A DNA stretch of 15,821 nucleotides from Methanomassiliicoccales archaeon (GTDB lineage: Archaea > Thermoplasmatota > Thermoplasmata > Methanomassiliicoccales > UBA472), in contig JAJRAL010000176.1 of NCBI GenBank assembly GCA_028679935.1, positions 1 through 15,821 of the forward strand, read 5' to 3'. This document shows, piece by piece, positions 2,710-9,397 of this stretch (position 1 is the first letter of the stretch; every line of letters begins with the position of its first letter). Under the pieces are notes generated by a model. That model worked only from the letters and a program-made list of their open reading frames with translations, was not told where the DNA came from and made no database searches. Position numbers and translations under genes: made by a program.

Positions 2710-3792
2710 TCAGCGGAAGTGGCACGCCACGTAGTGCTCGCCGCCCTTGTTGACCAGCGGAGGCTCGACCTCTTCGCAGATCGCCTCGCGGTACCGGCAG
2801 CGTGTGTGGAATCTGCATCCCGGCGGCGGCCTGGCGGGCGAGGGCACGTCGCCGCTCAGGATGATAGCCTCCCTATGATAGGTCGGGTCAGGAACCGGAA
2901 TCGCCGAGAGCAACGCCTCGGTGTAAGGGTGCAGCGGCTTGGCGAACAGTTCCTCCTTCTTCGCCGATTCCATCACCTTGCCCAGGTACATGACGCTGAC
3001 TCGATCGCACATGTGACGGATCGTGCTCAGGTCATGGGAGATGAATAGGTAGGTCAGGTTGAACTCTCTCTGCAGGTCATCGAGCATATTCAGGATCTGC
3101 GACTGGACCGAGACGTCGAGCGCCGACGTGGGTTCGTCGAGCACCACCAGGTCAGGGTTGAGCGCGAGCGCCCTCGCCACCCCGATCCTCTGCCTCTGCC
3201 CTCCGCTGAACTCGTGCGGATAGCGGTAGAGGTGGTCCGCGTTCAGGCCGACCTTGACCAGCAGCGACTCGGAGCGGGTGATGAGGTCCTCCCTGGCCGA
3301 CACGCCGTGGACCGTCAGCGGCTCCGCGATGACATCCTTAATCAGCATCCTCGGGTTGAGCGAGGAATACGGGTCCTGGAACACGACCTGCATTTCGCGG
3401 CGGAGACGGCGCATGTCCTCGTCGTTCTTGCGGTTGAGCGCGTACTCGTCACGTATCTCCTCGAGCCGCTCGATCTTCGGCAGGTGCTTCTTCTTCTTGG
3501 CCGGGTGCTGCGCATGAAGCTGCTTCTCCTCCTCCTCGAGCTTGAGAAGCTCGGCCCGGACCTCGGGCGGCATCTTGTAGTAGACGAACCCGTCCGTCGG
3601 CGGGGTGAGTTGGAGCAGGCAGCGCCCGCACGTGGTCTTACCGCAGCCACTCTCTCCCACGAGGCCGAGGGTCTCGCCGCGGTGGATCGCGAGGTCGATG
3701 CCGTCGATGGCTCTGACCGCCCCGACGCTCTTCTTGATCAGGCCGCCGCGGATCGGATAGTACTTCATCAGGCCCCTGGCCTCGATCAGCAC
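2710..3792 (-). CDS. oppF: Peptide ABC transporter ATP-binding protein OppF/DppF-type
   Basis: This 360-residue cytoplasmic ATPase energises peptide uptake as one of two nucleotide-binding subunits. From the GTG at 3792 it has Walker A GESGCGKT at 46-53, Q-loop Gln139 in VVFQDPYSSLNPR, signature SGGQRQR at 196-202, Walker B LVVLDEPT at 215-222 and switch His253. The C-terminal oligopeptide-transporter extension contains [11 protein letters not shown], with cysteines at 326, 332, 339 and 357. This pattern is known to hold a [4Fe-4S] cluster in a bacterial DppD. A charged, helical, Lys/Glu-rich insertion of roughly 45-55 residues (about 74-129) sits between Walker A and the Q-loop, where normal family members have a short connector. 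The GTG start is supported by GAGG six bases upstream, overlapping the oppD stop codon. The longer frame to 4113 lies wholly within oppD and was rejected. Confidence 0.94.
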   Translation of the reverse strand: MLIEARGLMKYYPIRGGLIKKSVGAVRAIDGIDLAIHRGETLGLVGESGCGKTTCGRCLLQLTPPTDGFVYYKMPPEVRAELLKLEEEEKQLHAQHPAKKKKHLPKIERLEEIRDEYALNRKNDEDMRRLRREMQVVFQDPYSSLNPRMLIKDVIAEPLTVHGVSAREDLITRSESLLVKVGLNADHLYRYPHEFSGGQRQRIGVARALALNPDLVVLDEPTSALDVSVQSQILNMLDDLQREFNLTYLFISHDLSTIRHMCDRVSVMYLGKVMESAKKEELFAKPLHPYTEALLSAIPVPDPTYHREAIILSGDVPSPARPPPGCRFHTRCRYREAICEEVEPPLVNKGGEHYVACHFR

Positions 3793-3800
3793 CCCGTCCT

Positions 3801-5219
3801 CTATGTTGCCACCCCCTGGTACAGATGACAGGCGGTGAAGTGGCCCTTGTGTATCTCCTGCATCGGAGGCTTCTCCTTCTTGCACACGGCCATCGCGTAC
3901 GGGCATCTGGGGTGGAAACGGCATCCGGGCGGCGGGTTGAGGAGGTTGGGCACGGTGCCCTCGATGGTCTCGAGCCGTTCGACGTCCTGGTGCACCTTCG
4001 GCAGCAGGTTCATCAGGCCTTGGGTGTAGGGATGGAGGGGGTCCTTGAAGATGTCCGTGGTCACTCCGACCTCGGCCATCGTGCCGGCGTACATCACGCC
4101 GACTCGATCGCACGTCTCCGCGACCACTCCTAGGTTATGGGTGATGAGCAGGATGGAGGTGCCGGTCTCGGTCTGAAGGTCGCGCATGAGCTTGAGTATC
4201 TGCGCCTGGACGGTGACGTCCAGGGCCGTCGTCGGCTCGTCGGCTATGAGGAGCCTTGGCTTGCATGCGAGCGCCATCGCGATCATCACGCGCTGTTGCA
4301 TCCCTCCCGAGAGCTCATGAGGGTAGGACTTGACCACGTTCGCCGGGTCGGGGATGCGTACGAGCCGGAGCATCCTCTCCGCCCTCGTCTTCGCCTCGAT
4401 CTTCGCGAACTTCATGTAATGGTTCCAGATGGGGATCTTGGCGGTCCAGCGCAGGTAGCGGGACTTGGGGTTCTCGGCCATCTTCACGAAGTACCTGCGA
4501 TTCCGCTTGATCCTGTACCTCTCCCAATGCCGGAACGGCTCGCTCTTGAAGCTGCCGCCGCACTGCGGGCAACGGTCCAAATCCTCCGCCATCTGGGCGC
4601 CGCAATTGTCGCACCTGTACTCTCCCTTGGCCCCCTTGGTCAGGCCGACGCGGTGATATGAATCAATCTCGGCGAGCCTCTCATCCATGTTCCTCAGGAT
4701 GGCCTTGGCGAGGTCCGCCCTCTCGTGGAGCAGGAGCACCTCGGATATCTGCGCCCCCGCGGGAAACACCGGGTTCAGGGCGCTCATCGGCTCCTGGAAT
4801 ATCATTGAGACCGCCTTGCCGCGGAACTCTTGGAGGTGGATCTTGTCGTAAACGAGGACATCGCAGGTGCCGCACTTGGCGTCGACCTCGGTCTTGAGCT
4901 TCGCCACGTCGGGGTGGTCCTTGCCGAGGCGCTTCTCCGCCTCCTCGAACTCGTTGAGCTTTCCCACCACGTCCTCGGCCGGCATGAAGAGTATCTTTCC
5001 GCTCTCGATCTTCCCCGGTGGCGAGGCTATCAGCCTGAGCACGGAGTTCGCCGTGACCGTCTTGCCGCATCCGCTCTCGCCCACGAGGCCGAAGGTCTCC
5101 CCCTTCGATATCCAGATGCTCACTCCGTCAAGGGCCTTGACGACGCCGGACTTGGTGTAGAAGTTCACGTATAGGTCCCTGATCTCCAGTATCCTCTGGT
5201 TCTCGTCCAGCGTAGTCAC
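3801..5219 (-). CDS. oppD: Peptide ABC transporter ATP-binding protein OppD/DppD-type with inserted zinc ribbon
   Basis: This 472-residue ATPase is much longer than the usual 320-340 residues of the family. From the GTG at 5219 it has Walker A GESGCGKT at 47-54, Q-loop Gln142, signature LSGGMQQR at 303-310, Walker B LLIADEPT at 323-330, switch His361, and the C-terminal cysteines 433, 439, 446 and 464 of the oligopeptide-transporter extension. The excess length comes from two insertions. One of about 35-50 residues lies between Walker A and the Q-loop and contains CGTC (116-119). The other, about 115 residues (roughly 166-280), lies just before the signature and contains CDNC (203-206) and CPQC (217-220), followed by a very basic stretch ([12 protein letters not shown]). 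The start overlaps the oppC stop as GTGA, indicating translational coupling. The open frame continues to 5321, but that part is a shadow of oppC. Confidence 0.93.
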
Positions 5220-6184
5220 CTTCTCGTCCGCGGGTCCAGTATGTCTCTCAGGGCATCGCCCAGAAGCGAGAACCCCATCGTGAATATGAGGATGAACATG
5301 CCAGGCAGTGCCCATGTCCACCAGGCGCTATAGTACACTCCCTTGTACAGAGTCACCACGGGCGGCATCCAGAGTTGGCCGTCCGAAACCATGCGGCCCC
5401 ACTCCGCGTATCCGCTCTCCACGCCGAAGCCGATGAACGACAGGCCCGCCGCAACCAGACAGACCGCGCCAAGGTCGAGAGTGATACTCACCACTAGCGG
5501 GGAGAGCGAGTTGGGGACGATGTGCCGGAACAGGATTCTGCTTTTCTTCGCCCCGATCGAGCGCGCCGCCTCTACGTAAGTGCTCTCTCTCACGGTGAGC
5601 ACCTGACCACGTATCAGCCTGGCGTACGCAGGCCACCACACGATGATCAGTGCCAGCATGATGTTCTCTAGGCTCCTGGTCAGCACGGCAGTGATCGCCA
5701 TTGCCAGGATCAGCGCGGGCAATGAAAGGAAGACATCAGTGATCCTCATCAGCAGCTCGTCTATCTTGCCGCCGTAGAATCCAGCCACCGCACCCAAAAC
5801 GATACCTATTATCGCTGACGTGCCCACGACGAATATGGAAGTGATGAGAGTGGTGCGCGCTCCCCAAACCAGCCCGTAATACATGTCGATGCCATTGTTG
5901 CTTGTCCCGAGAATGTGCCCTTCGGCGCCAGGAGGGATGGGACTGGCCCAGTTCCAGTCGCGGGGTATGAGCAGCGGGTCAGTGTGCGGCGCGGGTGGCG
6001 CGAGGAATGGGGCTAGGATGGCCAATGTGACCATCGCTATCACCATTACCAGCCCGGCCATCGCCGTGTAGTTCGTTCTTATCAGGTACCACGACTTCCG
6101 CCACTCTCTGAACCTCGGCCTTAGCTCTGCCAACCAGGCATCGAGGATTCCCGTCGCTCCTTTGGTGGTGCTTCCCGTCGCCAT
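5216..6184 (-). CDS. oppC: Peptide ABC transporter permease OppC/DppC-type
   Basis: This 322-residue inner permease subunit pairs with OppB to form the peptide channel. A cytoplasmic N-terminal tail (1-38) leads to helix 1 at about 40-62. An extracytoplasmic segment follows, containing the family motif HILGTSNNGIDMY (90-102). Further helices lie at about 112-136, 150-168, 172-188, 230-255 and 290-312. The cytoplasmic EAA loop that contacts the ATPases is EAARSIGAKKSRILFRHIVP at 205-224. The ATG is preceded by GGAGTGA at suitable spacing and lies 4 bases after the oppB stop codon. Its own stop overlaps the oppD start. Length and motif order are normal for the family. Confidence 0.96.
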   Translation of the reverse strand: MATGSTTKGATGILDAWLAELRPRFREWRKSWYLIRTNYTAMAGLVMVIAMVTLAILAPFLAPPAPHTDPLLIPRDWNWASPIPPGAEGHILGTSNNGIDMYYGLVWGARTTLITSIFVVGTSAIIGIVLGAVAGFYGGKIDELLMRITDVFLSLPALILAMAITAVLTRSLENIMLALIIVWWPAYARLIRGQVLTVRESTYVEAARSIGAKKSRILFRHIVPNSLSPLVVSITLDLGAVCLVAAGLSFIGFGVESGYAEWGRMVSDGQLWMPPVVTLYKGVYYSAWWTWALPGMFILIFTMGFSLLGDALRDILDPRTRR

Positions 6185-6188
6185 CTGA

Positions 6189-7211
6189 TCACTCCAGACG
6201 GACGCGCGGGTCCAGGTAGGCGTACATCACGTCGACGACCAAGTTCACTAAGACGTAGATTATGGCCGTTATCAGGACGAAACCGAGAATCGCGGGTATG
6301 TCCTGACCTGCTATCGCTTGCGTGGAATAGCGGCCGAGGCCCGGCCAGTTGAAGATGCTTTCCGTAAGCACCGCTCCACCGAGGAGGCCTCCGAACGCCA
6401 GGCCGATGACGGTCGTCGTAGGTATCATCGCGTTTTTTCTTGCGTGCTTCCTCGTGACCGTCTTCTCCGGCAGACCCTTCGCCCTAGCCGTCTTGACGTA
6501 GTCTAGGCCGAGGACCTCGAGCATGCTGTTCCTCATGATCCTGGTGATCACCGCGATCGAGCTGAACGCGAGCGTGATCGCCGGAAGGACGAGATGCCAC
6601 ACGGCGTCCCCGAACATCTGGAGGTTGCCCACGTAGAGCGAGTCCACTAGGATGAACCCGGTTATGCGAGGCACACCTCCTTTTGCGAATATGAACGAAT
6701 CGCTGAGCCGGTCGCCCTGAGGGAATATGTGCCAGCTGAAGCTGAAGAGATATAAGAGTATCAGGCCCAGAACGAATATGGGGATCGACACTCCGATGAG
6801 CGAGACGACCCTGGTCGTATGGTCGAATACCTTGTTCCTGCGAACGGCGGAGGCCGTGCCTAAAGCAATACCGATAATCACAGCGATGATTATCGCTACC
6901 ACTGTTAATTCGAAAGTAGCTGGAAAGAATTGAGAAATGGCTTTAGTGACAGGTTCACCGACCGAAGTCGACCATCCCCAGTCACCCGATATTATCCCGT
7001 TGAGCCAATAGAAGTACTGCTGCACCGGCGGGTCATTGAAGTGGTATTTCTCATAGACCTGCTGGATCTGCTGCGGCGTCATCTTGGAGTTGATGTAGGC
7101 CGCGGCAGGATCGCCGGTCATGCGGGTGAGGGCAAAGACGATCACCGTGACGCCAATCAGCACGGGGATGAGCAGCAGGAGCCTTCTGATGATGAATTGA
7201 TACATCTTCAT
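6189..7211 (-). CDS. oppB: Peptide ABC transporter permease OppB/DppB-type
   Basis: This 340-residue permease is the first gene of the permease/ATPase operon. The opening IIRRLLLLIPVLIGVTVIVF (7-26) is the typical first helix, followed by RMTGDPAA at 30-37. The remaining five helices lie near 100-120, 135-157, 203-222, 263-283 and 307-332. The EAA loop is DYVKTARAKGLPEKTVTRKH at 237-256. A strong Shine-Dalgarno sequence, AAGGAGG (minus strand, 7222-7228), precedes the ATG at 7211. A second in-frame ATG at 7205 is less well spaced. The protein ends with DVMYAYLDPRVR, the usual OppB ending. The gene is separated from oppA by a 296-base regulatory spacer and is followed after 4 bases by oppC. 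Confidence 0.96.
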   Translation of the reverse strand: MKMYQFIIRRLLLLIPVLIGVTVIVFALTRMTGDPAAAYINSKMTPQQIQQVYEKYHFNDPPVQQYFYWLNGIISGDWGWSTSVGEPVTKAISQFFPATFELTVVAIIIAVIIGIALGTASAVRRNKVFDHTTRVVSLIGVSIPIFVLGLILLYLFSFSWHIFPQGDRLSDSFIFAKGGVPRITGFILVDSLYVGNLQMFGDAVWHLVLPAITLAFSSIAVITRIMRNSMLEVLGLDYVKTARAKGLPEKTVTRKHARKNAMIPTTTVIGLAFGGLLGGAVLTESIFNWPGLGRYSTQAIAGQDIPAILGFVLITAIIYVLVNLVVDVMYAYLDPRVRLE

Positions 7212-7507: not shown

Positions 7508-9397
7508 TCAATCCTTGGCGATGAAGCTATCCAACACGGTCGTTTTCTGCACCGATGCGGTGGGTGGTAGGACCGTCGACCTCAGCAAGTTTGCCGCTTT
7601 GGTCAGGTTGAACTCATACACCGGGACTTCAGGTGGCGCGACGTAGCCGAACAGGCCCTTCGGAATCGGTCCGTTGGGTTGGATTGCGGTGCCCTTGAGA
7701 GTCTGGTTGTTGAATGTGTTGAAGTCAAAGGCGTAGTTGAATGCCTGTCTGACCTTCACATCGGCGAAGAAGTTCGACGGTATGTCGTTCAGGGTCGGGT
7801 TGAGACCGGTCGTGTTGATGTCCTGGTTCAGGCCCATGAAGTTCACGTTGAGCGACGAGGAGTTCGTCATCACGACGTTTCCGGAGGTAACATCCGGGTA
7901 CAGCGACTCCTGTATCGTGCGCGGGATGATCGCGGCATCCACATCGCCGAGTTTGAGGGCGCTGAGTCTCGCGTTGTCCGTGGCGTACTGCTTCAGCAGG
8001 ATGTTCTTGATCTTTGCCGGGCCCGCCCAGTAATCGTCATAGCGCGTCAGCGATATGAACTGGTTGGCCTGGAACTCCTGGAACTTGTACGGTCCGGTAC
8101 CGATCGGGTTGGTGTTGACCCAGGTGAACGCGGTCTGCGAGTACGGCTTGTTGCTCGAGTGCGCTAGGGTGTTGGTCAACGAGACGATCGACACGGAGTT
8201 GAACGCCAGCCTTGAGATGAACGCTGGGTCCTTCTGTGTCAGGTTGAACTGGACCGTCGTATCGTTCTTGGCCCAGACTGCACCCTGGATTGCCGACATC
8301 GGTACGCCGCTGGTCGCGGTGATGTTGCCGCCCGCGCCAAACACTCCTGCCGGGTTCTTCGTCGCGTTGTAGTAATCCGGGATCATGACCTCACCGATGA
8401 TCCAAGCAGGACCATGCGGGTCGTTTAGGCGCAGCTCCCTTGCGACGCTGAACACAACATCGGCGGCGGTGAAGGCGCTCCCGTCCTGGAACGTCACGCC
8501 CGGCCTAATGTGGAACGTGTAGTTCAGGCCGCTCGCGTTGATGCCGCCGTTCGCTAGGGTCGGGACCTCAGTGCAGAGCACCGGGGTGAACTCGTCAGTG
8601 TGCGAGCCGTTGTAGAAGATCAGCGTCTCCATGACGTTCTGTAGGACCTCTCCGCCCGCTGTCTCGTAGTCCTGGGCCGGGTCGAGGTACTGCGGATTGC
8701 CGCTAATCTCGCCCATCGTGAACGTGTCGGGGGTGGTCGAGCTCGCTGTCTTGTTCAGCAGGTAGTAGATCAGGTTCGAGTACAACGGGTTGAACGCGAA
8801 TCCGCTGACCCAGCTCCTCATGCATGTGAGGACCGATCCCTGAGAGAGCCAGATATAGATGGCCTCCTTCTGGGCGGCGAGGCTCACGTTCTTGAGCTCA
8901 TTGGCACGCGTCACCGGGTTGACATCCGATCCAGCCTGTTGGACCAATGCGTCCAACGTTGCGTTGTGGTAGCCTATCGTCTGCGGGAAGGTTCCTCCAG
9001 AGAGCAGGAAGGGTACGGTGTAATCGTTCGGGTCAGCATAGTCAGGTGCCCATCCCAGCCAGTAGGCGGGCATTGCACCGGATTGCTGCTTCTGCAGGTA
9101 AACCGACCATTCAAGCCCCGTCACGGTGATAACGATCTTGCCGGGGTTGAGCTTCTCCAGGTTTGTCTTCATTAGCGTAGCCGCTGTCTGTCTCGCAGAG
9201 TTGCCAGTGTTGTAGTAGATCTCCATCTTGAAGCCACGGTCCAACCAGTTTGTCGGCTTCGTCGGTGTGGGGGTTGTGCTGGTCAGCAAGACCGCCGCGA
9301 CCGCTGCGATGATGACGACGACTACGACCACAATCGCAATCAACATCGTCCTACCGCTGCGGGCAGCCTTAGCGCCAGCGCTTGAACTGCCTTCCAT
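7508..9397 (-). CDS. oppA: Membrane-anchored family 5 peptide-binding protein with circularly permuted domain order
   Basis: This 629-residue extracellular substrate-binding protein belongs to the peptide importer. Basic residues 1-17 and a hydrophobic helix at 18-38 form a signal anchor without a lipobox cysteine. A Thr/Pro linker (39-49) follows, and the rest carries 14 N-x-S/T sequons by my count, as expected for a glycosylated surface protein. The segment order is unusual. Residues 55-215 (GFKMEIYYNTGN at 55-66, LGWAPDYADPNDY at 114-126) correspond to the normal C-terminal third of SBP_bac_5 proteins. Residues 224-607 correspond to the normal N-terminal two thirds: TFTMGEISGNPQYLDP, the YTFHIRPGVTFQDGS motif (293-307), GTGPYKFQEF, KVRQAFNYAFD, and finally FNLTKAANLL at 596-605, which normally directly precedes the GF-x-YYNTGN motif. 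GGAGG eight bases upstream fixes the ATG. Confidence 0.92.
   Translation of the reverse strand: MEGSSSAGAKAARSGRTMLIAIVVVVVVIIAAVAAVLLTSTTPTPTKPTNWLDRGFKMEIYYNTGNSARQTAATLMKTNLEKLNPGKIVITVTGLEWSVYLQKQQSGAMPAYWLGWAPDYADPNDYTVPFLLSGGTFPQTIGYHNATLDALVQQAGSDVNPVTRANELKNVSLAAQKEAIYIWLSQGSVLTCMRSWVSGFAFNPLYSNLIYYLLNKTASSTTPDTFTMGEISGNPQYLDPAQDYETAGGEVLQNVMETLIFYNGSHTDEFTPVLCTEVPTLANGGINASGLNYTFHIRPGVTFQDGSAFTAADVVFSVARELRLNDPHGPAWIIGEVMIPDYYNATKNPAGVFGAGGNITATSGVPMSAIQGAVWAKNDTTVQFNLTQKDPAFISRLAFNSVSIVSLTNTLAHSSNKPYSQTAFTWVNTNPIGTGPYKFQEFQANQFISLTRYDDYWAGPAKIKNILLKQYATDNARLSALKLGDVDAAIIPRTIQESLYPDVTSGNVVMTNSSSLNVNFMGLNQDINTTGLNPTLNDIPSNFFADVKVRQAFNYAFDFNTFNNQTLKGTAIQPNGPIPKGLFGYVAPPEVPVYEFNLTKAANLLRSTVLPPTASVQKTTVLDSFIAKD

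Follow-up and report, generated by a model that had tools for sequence, protein, structure and literature searches.

Genes at the locus

The window, by which we mean the whole analysed stretch of 15,821 nucleotides from a Methanomassiliicoccales archaeon, carries a gene for a family-5 solute-binding protein (SBP). This gene is encoded together with two permeases and two ATPases, the composition of an OppABCDF system (Table 1), and synteny agrees with the assignment. The coordinates of the SBP gene in the preliminary description were correct, and its strand, which was missing there, is minus. Archaeal marker genes and the nearest relatives are the basis of the window's affiliation.

Table 1 Features of the SBP gene and of the transporter genes in the window (residues are those of the SBP)
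Feature	Position in window	Strand	Basis
Circularly permuted family-5 solute-binding protein gene, 629 aa	7508..9397	-	ORF; SBP_bac_5 in two stretches, permuted order
N-terminal membrane anchor helix, residues 16-36	9290..9352	-	Hydrophobic stretch; AF2 helix, low confidence there
Thr/Pro linker, residues 39-50	9248..9283	-	Sequence
Moved part (native C-terminal third), residues 51-216	8750..9247	-	Pfam and DppA alignments
Asp119, aligned to DppA Asp408 (peptide-binding residue of DppA)	9041..9043	-	DppA alignment
Junction of native C-end to native N-start, residues 217-224	8726..8749	-	Segment borders
Native start and middle, residues 225-607	7577..8725	-	
C-terminal tail, residues 608-629 and stop	7508..7576	-	Tail shuffles; native-order alignment
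OppB-type permease, downstream of SBP	6189..7211	-	PF00528, PF19300
OppC-type permease	5216..6184	-	PF00528, PF12911
OppD-type ATPase	3801..5321	-	PF00005, PF08352
OppF-type ATPase	2710..4113	-	PF00005, PF08352

Both ATPase domains are unusually long. In the OppD-type protein the ABC_tran match extends over residues 64-365 for 137 profile positions, and the inserted region contains, by eye, a zinc-ribbon-like CxxC...CxxC stretch. The OppF-type protein likewise contains a charged insertion of considerable length, with residues 137-330 standing for 137 profile positions.

Chain order and fold of the SBP

The window protein scored 236 bits against SBP_bac_5 (PF00496; curated cut-off 32.4) and is a member of this family by profile. 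The match is not collinear with the native order, as residues 54-135 aligned with profile positions 287-365 and residues 278-614 with positions 3-282 (of 368). The moved front part by itself also matched SBP_bac_5 with an E-value of 9.5e-10. The alignment with E. coli DppA concurred (residues 277-610 to DppA 46-340 and residues 75-206 to DppA 367-497). Since the two SBP_bac_5 stretches occur in exchanged order, the protein is a permuted relative of the family that lacks its usual chain order.

The preliminary description had proposed two exchanged, complementary segments, each present once, and this was borne out: the profile matches do not overlap, and each segment occurs once in the Pfam and in the DppA alignment. 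Both native segments are thus complementary and exchanged, with the native ends joined, as in a circular permutation. No second signal sequence is visible by eye at the junction (residues 217-224), and the anchor helix and the Thr/Pro linker precede the permuted core, both as described before. The N-terminus with the anchor is alike across 37 aligned permuted proteins. The profile, DppA, the relatives and the shared locus (see below) together give good support to the earlier claim that an OppA-type binding protein has been circularly permuted in nature.

An AF2 model of the window protein had a mean pLDDT of 82.4 and a pTM of 0.80. Of the suggested superposition on DppA, one part succeeded: residues 224-610 of the predicted model superposed on DppA 1-340 (of 507), while the moved part was not superposed by this comparison, which runs in chain order. 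The residue Asp119 aligns with DppA Asp408, numbered Asp436 in the precursor (the two aligned DppA chains are offset by 28). It is invariant among the 37 aligned permuted proteins, and the GW.PD..DP motif that contains it is found in all 46 permuted members. Asp436 and Arg383 of DppA are critical for dipeptide capture (PMC12136057).

Distribution and conservation of the permuted form

A protein search yielded 248 homologues, of which the best 120 were taken. Together with the query these made 121 sequences, and in 117 of them both segments were long enough for classing; 46 were permuted and 71 had the native order, with the window protein counted twice (P0001 and P0002). The permuted relatives among the matches listed were 41-77 % identical to the window protein. 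An alignment-based protein search returned mostly the same homologues. When contigs were searched with the window protein alone, no relative was recovered; an alignment-based contig scan did recover relatives, and the best 80 of 209 were kept. The permuted form was present in L001-L008, which bear the names Methanomassiliicoccus, Methanomassiliicoccales, Methanomassiliicoccaceae and broader Thermoplasmatota/Euryarchaeota bins.

The order to which G001 belongs was surveyed in 147 genomes, 37 of which had a match at an E-value of 1e-30. The match ran through the permuted model in ten (G001-G008, G137 and G146, with G008 interrupted at a contig end), and the other 27 mostly had two matches in native order, with a few fragments. 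When eight permuted genomes were searched whole, seven showed one match over the entire model and G008 was split by contig ends. No native-order SBP pair was found at 1e-20 in the seven unsplit genomes, and G006 had an additional weak match to another SBP. The preliminary description had asked for the same order in related genomes; the junction recurs in independent genomes, so it is not an accident of assembly between two paralogues.

The dN/dS ratios (Nei-Gojobori) were 0.16-0.30 for the pairs L003/L147, L005/L002, L005/L001, window/L145 and L007/L003, with dS about 1 or above in the last two. On either side of the junction they were 0.10-0.34 in the four permuted pairs that could be split, and one native-order pair gave 0.31. 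Because of these low values, the permuted genes are regarded as being under purifying selection.

Some further arrangements were noted. A junction-crossing match (G135:C57:15654-17473) lies downstream of the N part of a further SBP, within a frame of 1249 aa, and is possibly a tandem SBP. Most of P0071-P0121 are 719-1079 aa long and have annotated PKD-type domains in addition to the SBP core; these native-order relatives were the outgroup of the permuted family. In L141 and L142 (G641 and G742) the N and C parts of the SBP, in native order, are divided between two overlapping frames, which may reflect a frameshift, a sequencing error or a split gene; L141 contains an undetermined base.

Both chain orders at one locus

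Stretches of 14 kb around three permuted (L145, L147 and L148) and three native-order genes (L149, L150 and L151) were compared. The gene order MBL, zinc-ribbon protein, DUF373, MptE, SBP, OppB, OppC, OppD, OppF and DUF6015 was found in all six genomes, with eIF6 in five and M50 in four of the stretches, and the window has the same layout. The neighbouring genes around L001-L013 are alike as far as listed, the Opp genes in L006, L008 and L010 excepted. As permuted and native-order genes occupy one locus, they are not paralogues but orthologues with different chain orders.

For L001-L013 and L145-L151, the flanking non-transporter genes and OppBCDF gave conflicting trees. This conflict suggests that genomes may have exchanged the opp operon, including the SBP, as one unit while its chromosomal place was conserved.

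History within the order

The first tree had 80 rows, without P0002 and with 12 of the long PKD-type rows; removal of 17 long or near-copy rows left a 63-row tree, and the trees of the separate parts had 50 rows. In the 63-row tree a single permuted clade was rejected (AU p 3.6e-5), and a native-order subgroup (P0032, P0034, P0054, P0056, P0060 and P0064) nested inside the permuted members. Permuted monophyly was also rejected for the N part alone (p 3.9e-4) and was borderline for the C part alone (p 0.051). In both halves the native subgroup is nested among permuted proteins, but its closest neighbours are not the same: it joins P0030/P0031 in the C-part tree and the P0020 group in the whole-protein tree. 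For the C part, a constraint of the native subgroup to the P0020 group was not rejected (p 0.063), and native-order rows as one clade were weakly rejected (p 0.041). In the OppBCDF tree, for which 14 of 17 rows were usable, the native-order genomes L011 and L150 are likewise nested, here within the permuted L004, L001, L002 and L005. The trees of the window's group need three order changes.

The permuted members end in a tail of about 22 residues, which is absent from 14 aligned native-order proteins. Four permuted sets (three subgroups plus five proteins of mixed origin, all from the 37 of alignment A1) were compared, and in each of six comparisons the resemblance of the tails was above that of all 60 shuffles. 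Since the tail is found just in permuted forms, one permutation followed by one later return to native order is favoured for the window's group over repeated gains, as judged from the sequences.

Tandem copies as possible intermediates

A permutation that arises by duplication is predicted to pass through fused tandem intermediates (PMC3320104). Fused tandem SBPs were found in three genomes of an Asgard-centred sample (L196, L200 and L201). L201:1488-6941 (G993) is one frame of 1818 aa with two family-5 SBP copies that are 61 % identical, followed by a CARDB domain, and L196 (G1012) has the order N-C-N in a frame with masked stretches; both belong to archaea other than the window family. These arrays fit an origin of the permuted order by tandem duplication and trimming of the redundant ends, which would have left the single copy of each segment.

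We also considered the tail as a leftover of a duplicated start of the moved part (segC) and rejected this, as 209 of 300 shuffles scored as high. The tail matched the start of the moved part no better than shuffles did, and the window family thus showed no detectable remnant of a duplication.

Permuted lineages outside the window's group

Permuted family-5 SBPs were also found outside the window's group, in archaea and Chloroflexota, with three cut sites in all. A match to the junction-spanning model (A4) was counted as crossing when it extended at least 50 positions on both sides. The survey counts are lower bounds, since scoring in the phylum searches was confined to the top few candidates of each genome. 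In a Thermoplasmatota-phylum sample of 389 genomes, 44 matched at 1e-60 and seven crossed the junction (six of the window's order and G719). The Asgard-centred sample (148 genomes) had 43 matches at 1e-40 and six crossing ones, namely two single permuted genes (L197 and L198), the three tandem arrays and L199, which is open at a contig edge. There were 68 matching and two crossing genomes among the 201 of the Chloroflexota sample. A search of 398 genomes with A3 gave 11 matches at 1e-60, and G420 (L144) had the sole crossing match besides the four genomes of the second cut site.

The cut site of the window protein recurs in L140/P0126 of the Thermoplasmatota-phylum sample, in L202 and L203 (Chloroflexota) and in L197 and L198 (Asgard-centred sample), the last two on long branches. 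P0126 is 87 % identical to the native-order P0127 (87.4 % and 87.5 % for the two halves). Comparison of the L140 tail with tails of the window family gave a mixed result and supports no claim: 0 and 1 of 200 shuffles were as high for two sets, and 119 and 66 for the other two. The eight genomes nearest to L202 (58-61 % identical) all have the native order, and L197 had no match beyond itself in 148 genomes at 1e-40. L202 and L203 are two closely similar records, and the frame of L203 differs in the signal region.

The second cut site is used in L014, L015, L016 and L021 (Thaumarchaeota, Brockarchaeota and Methanomethylicus), in four of 398 genomes of that phylum, and a CARDB-like beta-sandwich lies between anchor and SBP core in all four proteins. 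Their native-order kin L024 and L137 have Thr-rich linkers in place of this domain. P0234 is also permuted at this site, and so is P0151, the two parts of which are 95.9 % and 93.9 % identical to the native-order P0177, with the same lipoprotein-type signal. An AF2 model of this type (L015, four sequences) was set aside (pLDDT 51.3, pTM 0.31).

The third cut site, within the moved part, is represented by L144. Its short moved piece scored 60 bits by the segC profile and was weak in the PDB alignments shown. Pfam found SBP_bac_5 in two stretches in every protein tested of the first two cut sites, and in one stretch in L144 and in two native-order proteins. P0151, P0234, L140, L144, L197 and L198 are each a single record or contig. 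OppBCDF-type genes follow the SBP in L015, L016, L021, L202 and L203.

A tree of 74 hand-chosen rows, for which the pieces had been arranged in native order, requires 11 changes of the order label, at least nine of them forced by starred branches; the tree was made by a quick method with SH-aLRT only and includes the long branches L197 and L198. The three cut sites map near DppA residues 341-366, 260-280 and 417-440. They lie inside or at the edge of lobe II of DppA, which we take to be residues 261-478, and for this reason the tether would shift to the other lobe.

Comparison with known binding proteins

The E. coli proteins DppA and OppA (family 5, cluster C; PDB 1dpp and 1b05) belong to the same profile family as the window protein, and the predicted fold agrees with theirs for residues 224-610; the chain order differs. 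DppA is a soluble periplasmic protein, whereas the window protein has an N-terminal anchor. Native-order SBPs of the Methanomassiliicoccales type (P0032, P0040, L009 and L011) have the same MEGS-type anchor as the permuted protein and are 40-49 % identical over about 60 % of the window query, but their N part stands before the C part and the C-terminal tail is absent. Two of them (L009/L149 and L011/L151) are found at the locus of the permuted genes.

TpMglB-2 (Tp0684) of Treponema pallidum is a naturally permuted glucose binder of cluster B, for which its authors proposed a 'cluster Bc' and raised membrane anchoring as a possible cause of the permutation (PMC4990184). It is like the window protein in being a tethered, naturally permuted binding protein of an ABC importer. 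In TpMglB-2, however, the first strands of the N-lobe have moved to the C-end and the moved part aligns with only 13 % identity (PMC4990184), whereas in the window protein, of family 5 and cluster C, the last third is in front, both parts are clearly homologous to the family and native-order orthologues exist at the same locus. The window protein therefore lies outside cluster Bc, being family 5 by profile with the C-terminal third in front. No permuted family-5 SBP was found in literature searches, to which subscription papers were mostly out of reach. The permuted family-5 SBP therefore appears to be new, TpMglB-2 being one permuted binding protein in print, with a different family and cut.

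Interpretation

The exchanged order, its conservation, the locus shared with native-order genes and the purifying selection are direct observations. We consider it highly probable that the protein is the working, naturally permuted peptide-binding protein of an OppABCDF importer. The anchor and linker have kept their N-terminal place and are now followed by the third that ordinarily closes the fold; a short linker connects the native C-end with the native N-start, and the chain stops at the point from which the native one continues. The permuted protein probably folds into the usual two-lobed flytrap, where peptides would be captured in the cleft and held by the Asp of the GW.PD motif as in DppA. 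The anchored SBP would deliver them to OppBC, powered by OppDF, with its tether entering the C-lobe instead of the N-lobe, that is, the lobe opposite the native ends. The permuted order may have arisen once in this group, from tandem copies that were fused and then lost their redundant ends, one subgroup having reverted afterwards.

The window is a short contig, and one might suspect from this that assembly has fused two paralogues at the junction. The same join in 46 classed sequences, in L001-L008 and in ten genomes of the order, the anchor kept in frame and the failure to find a native-order SBP pair at 1e-20 in the permuted genomes searched whole make such an artefact practically negligible. 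A real recombination of C and N parts from two different SBP genes is very unlikely. An origin of the moved part from another gene was left open by the authors of TpMglB-2 for their own protein (PMC4990184), and the conflict between flank and OppBCDF trees indicates that the operon seems to be exchanged; yet both halves nest the native subgroup among permuted members, though with different nearest neighbours, and in the youngest cases elsewhere (P0151/P0177 and P0126/P0127) both halves come from the same gene.

That the permutation arose at least three times at one cut site within the order, and never reverted, is a serious but rather doubtful alternative. The three order changes needed by the trees speak for it, as does the independent use of this cut site elsewhere (L140 and L202). 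The tail, common to the permuted sets and not seen in the aligned native-order forms, is against it, and so are the SASP-like residues at the end of native-order P0032 and P0054, which by eye resemble the permuted linker. SBPs serve as receptors in other systems, and the permuted protein might be a tethered peptide sensor rather than the binding subunit of the importer; since oppBCDF directly follows the gene, both in the window and in the syntenic genomes, this is highly improbable.

Beyond the naturally permuted importer protein of this group, we tentatively propose that family-5 SBPs are prone to permutation. Their native ends may be close enough for the chain to have been closed there repeatedly and reopened at a few C-lobe loops, the N-terminal tether or signal being kept and so moved to the other lobe. 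Such changes would be reversible and might be favoured where the SBP has to be anchored beside its permease.

OppA and DppA are textbook importers, the chain order of which is usually taken as fixed. Permuted proteins are named as ordinary substrate-binding proteins, so the rearrangement is invisible in annotation. With syntenic orthologues of both orders, a 94-96 % identical pair and fused tandems at hand, the birth of a permutation can be observed stepwise. As the position of the tether is what changes, such pairs offer a natural experiment on which lobe is anchored.
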